From NCBI RefSeq assembly GCF_018603885.1, contig NZ_JAHGAW010000009.1:62001-126000 (forward strand): a stretch of DNA of 64,000 nt, read 5' to 3'. The notes under the pieces were generated by a model, which was not told the DNA's origin, made no database searches, and saw nothing but the letters and a program-made list of their open reading frames with translations. This DNA is from Sphingobium nicotianae (GTDB lineage: Bacteria > Pseudomonadota > Alphaproteobacteria > Sphingomonadales > Sphingomonadaceae). Made by a program: the position numbers and the translations under genes. Below, one piece after another: positions 2 through 6,138 of the stretch. The first letter of the stretch is position 1. Every line of letters begins with the position of its first letter.

Positions 2-289
2 ATCGCCCAGGCTGCGACCTCGGTTCTCGCCTGTGAAATTCCGGTGCCGGATGCAGCGCGATCCAGCCAGGCCGTGGCGCCTGACGGGACGATGGTACCC
101 AAGGGGACGGCGGGGTCCTTCCCCGGTGGTCGCACCTTCAAGGGCGAGGATGTGCGCTCGGGCCTTCGTGGCGCCACCCTGCCGGGCACCAGCTATGACG
201 AGAGCCAGGCCTATCTCAACTATGTGCGCAAGCTGCAGAGCGGCCGCAGCGGCTTTACCTGCTATGCATCCCTGATGATGCCGAAGTAA
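2..289 (+). CDS. C-terminal part of an unidentified protein (5' end outside window)
   Basis: The reading frame is open from the left edge and stops with TAA at 287-289, giving about 95 residues of a longer protein. The visible part is rich in Gly, Ser and Thr and ends in FTCYASLMMPK. I recognise no domain, transmembrane segment or sorting signal in it. It lies 23 bases upstream of the PqqD-like gene on the same strand, so it may belong to the same operon and could be the substrate of that system, but this is only positional inference. The coding frame is supported by GC-rich third positions. Confidence 0.6.
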   Translation: MAQAATSVLACEIPVPDAARSSQAVAPDGTMVPKGTAGSFPGGRTFKGEDVRSGLRGATLPGTSYDESQAYLNYVRKLQSGRSGFTCYASLMMPK

Positions 290-312
290 GTCGTCCCGGG
301 GTTGGTCTGGCC

Positions 313-594
313 ATGGGCGTGACCTACCGGGCCGAAGCGCCTGACCAGATCGTCATCGAGCATCTCGGTGCGATTGATCTGCTTTATCATCACCGGTCGG
401 GCGCGACCCATCTGGTGGCCGCGCCGATGCCGCAAATCCTCGAAGCGCTTGGAGACGGGCCGGCGACGGTTGCGGACCTCATCGGACGGCTGGCGGCGCA
501 ATTCGACTTCGATGCGGCGGAGGACATGGCGTCGCTGCTGGAGCAACGGCTCGCGGAACTGGCTGCCCTCGGCCTCGTTCGCGTGGACGGCTGA
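313..594 (+). CDS. PqqD-like peptide-binding protein of an HPr-rel-A type system
   Basis: A 93-residue protein with the compact PqqD fold pattern: an N-terminal beta region, the TxHLVAAPMPQILEAL helix segment at about residues 31-46, and a C-terminal winged helix ending in LAALGLVRVDG. PqqD-type domains bind leader peptides of ribosomally made, modified peptides. Its setting, just upstream of an HprK-related kinase and a nucleotidyltransferase, matches the family annotated as the HPr-rel-A system PqqD family peptide chaperone. It starts at ATG 313 and ends 6 bases before the kinase gene. No peptide precursor is visible in the window. Confidence 0.7.
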   Translation: MGVTYRAEAPDQIVIEHLGAIDLLYHHRSGATHLVAAPMPQILEALGDGPATVADLIGRLAAQFDFDAAEDMASLLEQRLAELAALGLVRVDG

Positions 595-600
595 GCGGCC

Positions 601-1470
601 ATGCGACACGAAATCGGCCTCGGCATCGGCCCGGCGACCTTCCGCATCGGCTCTGCCTGGCGTGCGCCGCTCGACGCGCTGGCGCGGCTCTATGCCGCCT
701 ATCCCCCGGTGGACCTGTCGCGCCGCGTGCCGGACTTCACCGTTCGCCTTCAGCCGACGCGGCCCTGGCGTCGGCTGATCCGCCCATCCATCTTCATTGC
801 CGGGGATCACTGGCTGCCGGAGGCGGCACCGATGGCGCTGGAGCATGGCCTGCTCGCTGCCGAGATGGGCATGAACCTGCAGATGGCGCTCGGCTGGCGG
901 CGCCATGTGCTGCTGCATGCCTCCAGCGTCGAGCGGGATGGCAAGGCGATCATCATCACCGGCGAATCCGGGAGCGGCAAGTCGACCCTCGCCGCGATGC
1001 TGGGCGAGCGCGGCTGGCGGCTGATGGGCGACGAGTTCGCGCTGCTCGATCCGGTCTCGGGCGCGGTCTTTCCCTTCCCACGGCTCATCAGCCTCAAGAA
1101 CCAAGCCATTGATATCGCGACTGCCGGCATCGCATCGGAGCGTCTCGGCCCCCTGATGGCGGCCACGGCGAAGGGTGATATTCGCCACCTCGTCCCGCGC
1201 GCCGACGCGATCGCGCGCATGAAGGAGCCGGCGACACCCGCCCTGCTCCTGTTCCCGCAATATGGCCCGGCGGCGGACCGGCGTCCCGTCGATCCGGGCG
1301 AAGCCTTCGTGCGGCTGACGCAGGCCTCGACCAATTATGTCGCGCTCGGCGAGGCTGGTTTTCGCGCGCTGACACGGTTCGTCACGCAGGTGCCGGCCGT
1401 GGCGCTGGACTATCCGGACAGCGCGACCGTCTTCGCGGCGATCGACGATCTGTGGAGCCGGATCGGATGA
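601..1470 (+). CDS. HprK-related kinase A (P-loop kinase)
   Basis: A 289-residue protein distantly related to HPr kinase/phosphorylase. It has a clear Walker A loop, GESGSGKST, at residues 121-129, followed by an acidic segment, MGDEFALLD, at about 142-150, where HprK has its catalytic Asp pair. The N-terminal 100 residues do not resemble the HprK N-domain. This matches the HprK-related kinase A family, found beside PqqD-like and nucleotidyltransferase genes. HprK homologues in some lasso-peptide clusters phosphorylate the peptide C-terminus, so a peptide or protein substrate is plausible. Its stop overlaps the next start (ATGA), implying translational coupling. Confidence 0.75.
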   Translation: MRHEIGLGIGPATFRIGSAWRAPLDALARLYAAYPPVDLSRRVPDFTVRLQPTRPWRRLIRPSIFIAGDHWLPEAAPMALEHGLLAAEMGMNLQMALGWRRHVLLHASSVERDGKAIIITGESGSGKSTLAAMLGERGWRLMGDEFALLDPVSGAVFPFPRLISLKNQAIDIATAGIASERLGPLMAATAKGDIRHLVPRADAIARMKEPATPALLLFPQYGPAADRRPVDPGEAFVRLTQASTNYVALGEAGFRALTRFVTQVPAVALDYPDSATVFAAIDDLWSRIG

Positions 1471-2492
1471 GCGCGGCGTTGCTCGTCGCCGTGCTGCTGG
1501 AGCCCGGCGAGGCGCTGCGCCTCGATGCGCGGCACTGGACGGGCCTGCTTGCGGCGGCGCGTGGCGAGCGATTGATCGGGACGCTGGCGGCGAAGCTGGA
1601 CGGCCTCGACGTTCCGCCGGACGTCGCGGCGATCCTGGCCGACGCCCGGCTCGATAATCTGCGCGAGCGGCGGCAGGCGCTGTGGGAAGTCGATCGCGCG
1701 CTGGCGGCGCTGGCGCCCCTCGATTGCCCGGTGGTGCTGCTCAAGGGCAGCGCCTTCATCGCTGCGGGACTGTTGGCGGGGCAGGGCCGGGCGATCGGCG
1801 ATCTCGACATCCTCGTGCCGCGCGAGCGGCTGGACGAGGTCGAGGCAGCCCTGCTTTCGGCCGGATGGGAATGGGTTAAGCCTGATCCCTATGACGACAT
1901 CTATTATCGCCGCTGGATGCACGAACTGCCTCCGCTGATCCATCATGACCGGGATCGCATGATCGACGTGCATCACACGATCCTGCCGCTGACGGCGCGA
2001 CCCAGGCCGGATGCGGCGGCGATGATCGCCGATGCGGTGCCGCTGGAGGGCGGCGGGGCAGTGCTGCGGATCGACGACATGCTCTGTCATGCCGCCGCGC
2101 ATCTGCTGGCGGACGGCGACATGGCCGGGGGCCTGCGCAATCTCTGGGATATTCATTGCCTGATCCTGGAGCATGGGGAGGCACCGAATTTCTGGCTCGC
2201 CCTGGATCGGCGCGCGCGGCAGCACGGGCTGACGGGTCCGATGCGGCGTGCGGTGCGGCTGTCGCATCGGATTTTCGGGACCGAGGCGCCGGCTGCCTGG
2301 CTTAAGGGCGCTGTCTTTGATGCTCTTTTCGAAGCGCGCCTGCTTACCCGCAACGACTGGGGTCTGGAGGAGCGCCCCTTCCTGCGCCTCGCTTTCTACA
2401 TCCGCTCGCACTGGCTGCGCATGCCCCCCTTGATGCTCGCGAGGCATCTCTGGACGAAATGGCGCAAGGGCTATCGGCCCGTCGGCCCATGA
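1467..2492 (+). CDS. nucleotidyltransferase family protein (NTP_transf_5 type)
   Basis: A 341-residue protein. The polymerase-beta-type signature is seen as KGSAF at about residues 93-97 followed by GDLDILV at about 110-116, giving the GS...DxD metal site of the family. It probably transfers a nucleotide to an unknown acceptor. I chose ATG 1467, which overlaps the TGA of the kinase gene as ATGA; a GTG at 1452 in frame is less likely. It forms a coupled set with the PqqD-like and HprK-like proteins, as in HPr-rel-A systems and in some peptide tailoring clusters where kinase and nucleotidyltransferase occur together. Confidence 0.7.
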   Translation: MSAALLVAVLLEPGEALRLDARHWTGLLAAARGERLIGTLAAKLDGLDVPPDVAAILADARLDNLRERRQALWEVDRALAALAPLDCPVVLLKGSAFIAAGLLAGQGRAIGDLDILVPRERLDEVEAALLSAGWEWVKPDPYDDIYYRRWMHELPPLIHHDRDRMIDVHHTILPLTARPRPDAAAMIADAVPLEGGGAVLRIDDMLCHAAAHLLADGDMAGGLRNLWDIHCLILEHGEAPNFWLALDRRARQHGLTGPMRRAVRLSHRIFGTEAPAAWLKGAVFDALFEARLLTRNDWGLEERPFLRLAFYIRSHWLRMPPLMLARHLWTKWRKGYRPVGP

Positions 2493-3025
2493 ACTTCACG
2501 ACCCGATTGGCGGCAGAAGCGGATCTTCCGGCCTTGCGCGCATTGATGGCGCTGGCGATCGATCGCCTGCAGTCCGATTTTCTGTCCGTCGAGCAGGTCG
2601 TGGCGAGCCGGGCGGTCATGGGCCTGGACACGCAGCTGATCGCTGACCGCACCTACTTCCTGGCGGAAGAAAATGGCGTCCTGGCGGGGTGCGGCGGCTG
2701 GAGCCGTCGCGCGACGCTTTACGGTGGCGATCACAGCACGGCCCTGCGCGATCCAGAATTGCTCGATCCGGTCCGGGATGCCGCCCGTATCCGGGCCATG
2801 TACACGCATCCCGCCTTCGCGCGCCGTGGTATCGGCCGGCTCATCCTGGACACGTGCGAGGGAGCGGCGCGCGATGCCGGGTTCGTCCGGGCGGAGCTCA
2901 TGGCCACGCTGAGCGGCCAGCCGCTTTACGCCGTCTGCGGCTATCTCACGATCGAAGCGATCGAGGCCGATGTGAATGGCATCAAGGTGCCGCTGGTGCG
3001 CATGGGCAAGACGCTGCGGGATTAG
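2489..3025 (+). CDS. GNAT family N-acetyltransferase
   Basis: A 178-residue protein with the GNAT fold: an N-terminal TTRLAAEADLPALRALM segment, the central strand leading to MYTHPAFARRGIGRLILD (acetyl-CoA binding loop near residues 102-119), and the C-terminal ELMATLSGQPLYAVCGY segment. The start ATG 2489 overlaps the nucleotidyltransferase stop (ATGA), so it is co-translated with the HPr-rel-A-like genes and may be a tailoring enzyme of that system or simply a neighbour. Its TAG stop at 3023-3025 overlaps the stop codon of the convergent gph gene. The acceptor substrate is unknown. Confidence 0.75.
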   Translation: MNFTTRLAAEADLPALRALMALAIDRLQSDFLSVEQVVASRAVMGLDTQLIADRTYFLAEENGVLAGCGGWSRRATLYGGDHSTALRDPELLDPVRDAARIRAMYTHPAFARRGIGRLILDTCEGAARDAGFVRAELMATLSGQPLYAVCGYLTIEAIEADVNGIKVPLVRMGKTLRD

Positions 3026-5521: not shown

Positions 5522-5773
5522 ATGCGTTTTCTGGCCGACCTGTCCGATGAAGATGTGAAGTGGCTCGATGCTCGCGCGGCCGAGGAAGGCAAGTCGCGCG
5601 CCGCCGTGTTGCGCGAGGCTGTCGGCGCCTATCGGGCCGAGCAGGCCAAGCAGGGAATCGAGCGCTATTTCGGACTCTGGGCCAGGCATGGCTCGTCAAT
5701 CGACGGTCTCGATTATGAGCGGCGCATGCGCGGCGAGTGGGATCGCGATTGGGACGGCGAGCCGGCCTCGTGA
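5522..5773 (+). CDS. ribbon-helix-helix antitoxin (VapB-like)
   Basis: An 83-residue protein beginning MRFLADLSDEDVKWLDARAA and continuing KSRAAVLREAVGAYRAE, the strand-helix-helix pattern of CopG/RHH antitoxins in the first 45 residues. The rest (about 46-83), rich in Trp, Arg and Asp, is the likely toxin-neutralising tail. Its TGA overlaps the GTG start of the PIN toxin (GTGA). No Shine-Dalgarno sequence is visible before ATG 5522, and the palindromic operator runs right up to the start codon, so the mRNA may be leaderless or poorly translated. Confidence 0.8.
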   Translation: MRFLADLSDEDVKWLDARAAEEGKSRAAVLREAVGAYRAEQAKQGIERYFGLWARHGSSIDGLDYERRMRGEWDRDWDGEPAS

Positions 5774-6138
5774 GCGAATTCTACTTCGATACCAATATCC
5801 TCATCGATGCGCTTCACGACCGGCCGCAAGCCTGGGCGGAGTTGCGCCGGGCCAAGCGGCCGTGGATCAGCCGCATCAGCTGGATCGAAGTGCTTGCCGG
5901 CGCGCCGGACGGCCTGCAAACGGAGACCGAACGCTTCCTCGATCTCTTCGGCGTCGCCGAAGTCGATGAAGAAGTCGGCCGGCGCGCGGCGGCGCTCCGG
6001 CATCAGCGTCGATCCATGAAGCTCCCCGATGCGATCATCCTGGCCTCGGCCCAGCTCAGCGGCCGGATCCTGGTGACACGCAACAGCAAGGATTTCCCGG
6101 CCAACATGCCGGGCATCCGCATCCCCTATACTCTCTGA
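5770..6138 (+). CDS. vapC: PIN-domain ribonuclease toxin (VapC-like)
   Basis: A 122-residue PIN-domain protein. The acidic metal-binding residues expected of VapC are visible: Asp7 in FDTNILID, Glu40 in SWIEVLAG, Asp87 in KLPDAIILASA and Asp108 in NSKDFP. VapC toxins are Mg-dependent RNases that cleave tRNA or rRNA. I chose GTG 5770, which overlaps the antitoxin stop and puts FDTNILID next to the N-terminus as in the family; an upstream in-frame ATG at 5737 lies within the antitoxin gene. The pair sits between glmU and glmS, 15 bases before glmS. Confidence 0.85.
   Translation: MSEFYFDTNILIDALHDRPQAWAELRRAKRPWISRISWIEVLAGAPDGLQTETERFLDLFGVAEVDEEVGRRAAALRHQRRSMKLPDAIILASAQLSGRILVTRNSKDFPANMPGIRIPYTL

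Follow-up and report, generated by a model that had tools for sequence, protein, structure and literature searches.

A compact operon and its cut first gene

The DNA analysed here, referred to as the window, is a stretch of 64,000 nucleotides (nt) from Sphingobium nicotianae covering bases 62001-126000 of a 235,599-base contig. At its left end lie five plus-strand genes whose arrangement in a compact operon we confirmed. The first three are separated by gaps of 23 and 6 nt, and the last two junctions (kinase/nucleotidyltransferase and nucleotidyltransferase/GNAT) are 4-nt ATGA overlaps. The genes and features concerned are as follows.

2..289, plus strand: open reading frame 1 (ORF1), C-terminal 95 residues in the window, candidate substrate; the 5' end lies beyond the window edge
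257..274, plus strand: ORF1 motif T136-C137-Y138-A139-S140-L141; the codon of Ser140, the predicted modified residue, is at 269-271
313..594, plus strand: PqqD-like protein of 93 amino acids (aa), HPr-rel-A system PqqD family (TIGR04353, 70 bits, cut-off 35)
601..1470, plus strand: HprK-related kinase A, 289 aa (TIGR04352, 226.1 bits, cut-off 200)
961..987, plus strand: P-loop GESGSGKST, kinase residues 121-129, found in the sequence and aligned to the HprK P-loop
1467..2492, plus strand: NTP_transf_5 nucleotidyltransferase, 341 aa (PF14907, 161.6 bits, cut-off 31.2)
1800-1808, plus strand: D112-x-D114 of the nucleotidyltransferase
1965-1967, plus strand: D167 of the nucleotidyltransferase
2489..3025, plus strand: GNAT acetyltransferase, 178 aa, judged outside the system (PF00583, 39.2 bits, cut-off 20.7)

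A first-pass annotation of this DNA had described an operon of HPr-rel-A type with overlapping or near-zero spacing and an HprK-related P-loop kinase. The genes, junctions and family scores bear out both points: the P-loop is in place, and all three families of the HPr-rel-A system (TIGR04353, TIGR04352 and PF14907) exceed their curated cut-offs. Homologues of the PF14907 nucleotidyltransferase were found in 25/25 and 19/20 other kinase regions. The same annotation had considered the terminal GNAT gene as a tailoring enzyme. We rejected it as a member of the system because 0/45 other kinase regions and 0/3 same-genus loci contain a GNAT homologue, and the gene looks like a bystander.

The first gene, cut only by the window edge, proved to be whole in the same contig when followed leftward, as had been advised. 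The complete gene (L003:9852-10289) starts 149 bases to the left of window base 1 and encodes a protein of 145 residues counted from the chosen ATG; the mechanical ORF, from an upstream TTG, would give 153 aa. The protein carries a signal of twin-arginine translocation (Tat) type, SRRQLLRFGAVTGAVVLTVRPGIAQA; it has an acidic n-region and SRRQLLRFGAVTGAVVLTV-RPGIAQA, which is Tat-like. The mature part of about 90 residues contains two cysteines and has the C-terminus SGFTCYASLMMPK. Of the 25 best named kinase loci (L035-L059), 19 gave a tblastn match to ORF1 with an E value no higher than 1.7e-29, and C61, C137 and S140 are among the invariant columns in an alignment of 19 homologues (A2). The structure model of ORF1 has a mean predicted local distance difference test (pLDDT) value of 61.5, with blocks of residues 61-130 at 66-87, and its only Foldseek matches are at E 5.3 and 9.4. 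We drew no inference from the fold because of this low model confidence and these matches. Family libraries gave no name to the substrate candidates beyond weak TAT matches.

ORF1 and a PhoR-like histidine kinase gene (L003:8473-9852; TIGR02966, 304.7 bits, cut-off 334.2) are divergently oriented, and the latter is followed by pstS. PhoR-like genes occur in 19/25 of the regions L035-L059, and one also adjoins the unlinked ORF1 in L148 and L155. Upstream of ORF1, the exact sequence TTTACGATTGCGA is present in 6/26 sites (L041, L048, L050, L051, L054 and L057) and is a possible promoter or operator; with an exact match in these 6 only, it was rejected as a common DNA element. In four Sphingobium-type loci (L035, L036, L037 and L162:2725-3903), an inserted glycosyltransferase-like gene separates ORF1 from the PqqD gene. 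The best match of the inserted gene in L162 is TIGR03088, below cut-off.

A small Tat-type protein accompanies the kinase

We surveyed 95 kinase loci for a small upstream protein, with one locus per record: the window, 28 from a search of the order, 25 from named genomes, 21 from a search of the phylum and 20 from larger regions, duplicates of the larger regions having been taken out. They do not count as 95 independent events: one pair of kinases is identical, named records may overlap with unnamed ones, and the loci are related. A small ORF with RR and a hydrophobic run was taken as an upstream candidate, and the automatic search was completed by hand. The first, stricter Tat filter returned candidates in 53/95 loci; it passed over proteins whose h-region contains a charged residue and was then loosened. 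A CxxS in the mature part led to automatic acceptance, five loci without it (L058, L059, L133, L136 and L137) were accepted by name, and seven proteins were added by hand (L014, L119, L125, L126, L134, L138 and L139). Dropped rows comprised a membrane-like protein of 213 residues in L030, ORFs in L035, L036, L039, L040, L047 and L049 that were antisense or out of frame, and additional candidates in L055 and L140.

A small Tat-type ORF lies upstream of the kinase in 85/95 loci. For the 10 loci without one, a genome search found a candidate elsewhere in 10/10 genomes: on another contig, hundreds of kilobases (kb) away (up to about 685 kb, in G119), on the upstream side at a distance of 4 kb (G172) or adjacent in divergent orientation (G328). 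[ST]CxxS is present in all 10 separated candidates. Directly 3' of the separated candidate in G328, G263, G217 and G053 is a PqqD-like ORF (TIGR04353 at 34.3, 42.3, 50.8 and 41.4 bits, respectively, against the cut-off of 35), and in Sphingopyxis the PqqD-like ORF remains with the kinase. A PqqD-like ORF that moves with the separated candidate behaves as expected of a substrate-binding protein. The idea that the first gene encodes the substrate, already raised in the first-pass annotation, thus gained support from the 85 linked and 10 separated candidates, and searching the neighbourhoods of kinase homologues did uncover a conserved short ORF. This is the opposite of the result that would have refuted the idea, namely homologous operons with neither the upstream gene nor any conserved small ORF.

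Across the order, the kinase exceeds its family cut-off in 88/196 genomes, compared with 61/398 genomes sampled across the phylum. Within family f1, which makes up 113 of the 196 order genomes (lists and total counted by hand), 32/113 genomes have both a kinase over cut-off and an ORF1 homologue (E<=1e-7) and 81 have neither, with zero discordance.

These data bear on the possibility that a housekeeping protein, for instance HPr, is the kinase target and ORF1 is only a co-inherited neighbour. The kinase has the HprK fold, and the divergent PhoR-like gene provides other reasons for the neighbourhood of ORF1 in Sphingomonads. Nevertheless, co-occurrence with the kinase holds when the two genes are far apart or on other contigs, on which ground the neighbour-only explanation was largely rejected, and the C-terminal motif described below is kept across classes at a mean mature identity of 0.24 versus 0.16 for shuffled sequences (mean pairwise values over 15 diverse members). 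The S. nicotianae genome also contains a second HprK-like ORF (G000:C9:22490-22648, 238 aa frame), probably an ordinary HprK, which could fill such a role. We therefore regard a housekeeping target as very improbable.

Two loci depart from the usual layout. L141:7755-9112 contains two Tat-type candidates, both ending in TCLQSI, with one PqqD-like ORF between them. L119:2685-2933 (minus strand) encodes an 82-aa candidate with a mature part of about 20 residues, SASTQCDTATASCLDSFNGL, that includes two cysteines and SCLDSF; it may be a minimal substrate or a truncation. An HtrA/MarP-like serine protease gene, a possible maturation protease, recurs in the kinase regions: 9/20 of L123-L142 (L123, L125, L126, L131, L132, L135, L138, L139 and L142), plus L059.

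A conserved Cys-Ser motif and even cysteine numbers

The candidates share a motif. [ST]-C-x-x-S-[FILMVY] is present in 72/86 candidate proteins (71/85 loci), with 0.91 expected from shuffling of the mature parts, although the motif was derived from the same data on which it is counted and CxxS aided the acceptance of candidates. As a control, 479 other called proteins of 80-330 aa from the same regions included 11 that were signal-like and one with the motif, which is the unlinked G053 candidate. The C and S of the motif are invariant both in the 19 rows of A2 and in an alignment of 16 candidates from outside Sphingomonadales (A3), where complete conservation is confined to signal residues and, in the mature part, to C, C, G, C-W and S. 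We designated the proteins with this motif type 1. They contain two cysteines in 45 cases, four in 26 and three in one, and an even number, as in 71/72 here, is what disulfide formation outside the cell would lead one to expect. Substrate type follows the kinase phylogeny: the division between type 1 and all others takes 2 changes on the kinase tree, compared with 13.1 when labels were shuffled (0/500 as low), and L133 is the sole locus out of place.

In 66/72 type-1 proteins, the motif Ser lies 1-16 residues from the C-terminus. This position fits the idea that CxxS is a sorting tag by which the operon fixes an exported protein to polysaccharide or to the surface, much as PEP-CTERM/exosortase uses its own tag. 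The association with exosortase A (XrtA) and the XrtA-system genes beside several loci, both described below, agree with it. Yet the sequences read (the A2 and A3 sets) have no hydrophobic helix or basic cluster after the motif, and type-2 proteins carry their motif close to the N-terminus of the mature part. We consider a sorting tag unlikely.

A different alternative concerns the other end of the protein. The RR-hydrophobic segment could be a leader read by the PqqD protein, the product not being exported by Tat. PqqD-type domains bind leader peptides, and the curated TAT models remain below cut-off for ORF1 (PF10518, 19.2 bits, cut-off 22.7, E 0.0011; TIGR01409, 14.6 bits, cut-off 16.7). 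Against this stand RRx[LIFM] in 84/86 candidates together with the hydrophobic run (which was required by the filter or read by eye), the even cysteine number and the lack of an exporter ATPase nearby: a motif search of the 441 genes called within 5 kb in 46 regions found no ABC exporter ATPase. A leader in place of a Tat signal is thus quite improbable.

Association with exosortase A

We examined the distribution of XrtA, called at E<=1e-45 (9/136 positive genomes are below the curated cut-off). XrtA is present in 84/90 kinase genomes, two of which have a kinase just below cut-off, versus 52/106 others (Fisher 3.7e-12, phylogeny not corrected for). Within f1 the figures are 32/32 kinase genomes versus 45/81 others. 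Other clades have the operon within XrtA loci. Four of these (L142, L125, L124 and L127) were checked by family cut-offs, and XrtA, FemAB, PrsK, PrsR, amidotransferase and TIGR03088 glycosyltransferase exceeded them. The XrtA amidotransferase of L124 also matches the lasso cyclase model below cut-off, at 239.5 of 525 bits.

The product might instead be a secreted ribosomal peptide natural product, such as a signal or bacteriocin, with the exopolysaccharide link reflecting shared location only. Linear polyphosphorylated peptides (LPP) of Bacillota may be of this kind (PMC13381572, 2026). The same three enzyme types are present in LPP clusters and here, the mature part of the L119 candidate is very small, and L141 has two candidates. 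The ORF1 mature part of about 90 aa, in contrast, is predicted to be partly folded, the XrtA co-occurrence is nested, and exporter ATPases are lacking among the 441 genes. On balance, a secreted peptide appears rather unlikely.

A proposed modification pathway

Kinase residues H106, P-loop K127, D144 and E145 are invariant in 95/95 loci, and a profile search aligned the catalytic residues with those of HprK. The AlphaFold2 model of the kinase (pLDDT 93.9) matched phosphoenolpyruvate carboxykinase (PEPCK) and HprK structures in Foldseek. For the nucleotidyltransferase, D112 and D114 are each present in 78/88 and D167 in 81/88 aligned downstream ORFs, which were picked by length.

Because of its export signal, its Cys-Ser tail and its relatives accompanying the kinase in all 95 records, the first gene product is probably the missing target, and we hold it highly probable that the ORF1 family is the substrate of the system. 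More specifically, the operon is likely an HPr-rel-A protein-modification system whose substrate is the product of its own first gene, a small protein bound for Tat export, with one or two predicted disulfides, that ends in [ST]-C-x-x-S-[hydrophobic]. The first-pass annotation did not note the exosortase-A link, the signal of Tat type, CxxS or the even number of cysteines. Computation shows which genes are present, that the candidate is conserved and accompanies the kinase even without linkage, that there is a motif, that the catalytic residues are intact and that XrtA is associated; recognition, phosphorylation site, second modification, export and polysaccharide role are what we infer.

We propose that the PqqD-like protein, a putative substrate-binding peptide chaperone, would bind the precursor in the cytoplasm, probably at the signal or leader part, and present it to the HprK-like kinase. 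The kinase would then phosphorylate the conserved motif Ser, Ser140 in ORF1, which we favor as the phosphosite with some confidence. That phosphate may next receive a nucleotidyl group or a sugar phosphate from the MNT-type nucleotidyltransferase. Both of these chemical steps are proposed by analogy with lasso-kinase, PsmN and LPP chemistry. ATP-dependent chemistry must precede export, and Tat can transport a folded, modified protein. The modified protein would exit via Tat, its cysteines would pair outside, and it would work in or with an exosortase-A type exopolysaccharide. As a complete sequence, these steps are tentative.

Several observations weigh against this proposal, in addition to the relatedness of the loci and the derivation of the motif noted above. 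None of 10 candidate proteins exceeded the cut-offs of the TAT-signal models, some having no score. No lasso- or LPP-type leader motif was found in the 86 precursors. The motif varies: type-2 proteins (L123, L125, L126, L131, L134, L135 and L138) have a strict Cx[ILVA]S[GP] near the mature N-terminus and far from the C-terminus, and 7/85 linked proteins (L058, L059, L132, L133, L136, L137 and L139) have neither pattern. Four f1 genomes that lack the kinase show weak ORF1 matches (E 0.0015-0.009). Six kinase genomes (G023, G045, G051, G084, G101 and G113), all assemblies of 60 to about 400 contigs, have no XrtA match, and XrtA in the S. nicotianae genome is on another contig than the operon. 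Lasso kinases require a His-Lys-Asp-Asp set (PMC9266682), whereas the fourth residue here is Glu, giving D-E rather than D-D. The nucleotidyltransferase step is the weakest of the proposal, because LppN was inactive in the host used for the published work on LPP (PMC13381572).

If the proposal is true, kinase and nucleotidyltransferase chemistry of the type found with ribosomally synthesized and post-translationally modified peptides (RiPPs), known from lasso and linear peptides, also serves Tat-exported proteins tied to exopolysaccharide, and modification before export would explain the choice of Tat. A modification system with a name and no substrate gains a family of proposed substrates, a predicted site of modification and a context in the cell, and three or four small proteins would suffice for direct tests of the chemistry of the kinase and NTP_transf_5. 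A more speculative extension, which we consider improbable as it stands, is that HPr-rel-A defines a new class of glyco-phosphoproteins that are exported: a Tat protein closed by disulfides would be phosphorylated on the CxxS Ser and primed with a sugar phosphate in the cytoplasm, and would then act outside as protein anchor or primer of exosortase-A exopolysaccharide. Such a class, if true, would link enzymology of RiPP type with export by Tat and with assembly of the matrix.

Outside the operon, window positions 5522-6138, between glmU and glmS, contain a small ORF pair, and a similar pair is at the same place in the same-genus L160:7733-8338. We take it to resemble VapB/VapC (antitoxin plus PIN).

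Comparison with known systems

A literature search of open-licence papers found no paper on the HPr-rel-A system, and we compared the operon with three better described systems. LPP clusters combine a RiPP recognition element (RRE), an HprK-like kinase and an NTP-transferase, and Ser3 of the linear precursor is phosphorylated; they have no cyclase and are found in or beside capsular polysaccharide loci (PMC13381572). An RRE-type protein, an HprK-like kinase, an NTP-transferase and a small precursor are all present here. In LPP clusters there is a SipW-like peptidase together with an MsbA-like exporter, and the leader is YxxPxVLxHQ; the present system has a Tat-type signal, conserved cysteines and CxxS. 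The text of PMC13381572 makes no mention of twin-arginine, exosortase or Pseudomonadota. The LPP leader motif YxxPxVLxHQxI is present in 0/86 precursors, and the lack of lasso or LPP leaders in them and of ABC exporter ATPases among the 441 genes indicates that this is not simply an LPP cluster.

The lasso systems of paeninodin and pseudomycoidin type likewise have an HprK-like kinase, which there acts on a C-terminal Ser, and a nucleotidyltransferase homologue (PMC9266682). PadeK, ThcoK and SyanK, which are HprK-like, phosphorylate the C-terminal Ser of lasso peptides, some repeatedly, and PsmN, an annotated nucleotidyltransferase (homologue), was assigned the addition of hexose on phospho-Ser (PMC9266682). 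The putative target here differs in being a larger exported Cys protein. The neighbouring genes that were read, a part of the total, include no recognisable lasso macrolactam cyclase or B2 gene.

With the PEP-CTERM/exosortase A system (PMC1569441), several loci share neighbouring genes for XrtA, PrsK, PrsR, FemAB-like protein, amidotransferase and glycosyltransferase. PEP-CTERM family models matched none of 10 candidate proteins, ORF1 included, and ORF1 differs in carrying a Tat-type signal instead. The operon is an HPr-rel-A system by all three families, and membership of the LPP or lasso systems is not supported. The names of the HPr-rel-A family models (TIGR04352, TIGR04353 and PF14907) carry no substrate, and we propose here a substrate family, a motif and a cellular context for them.

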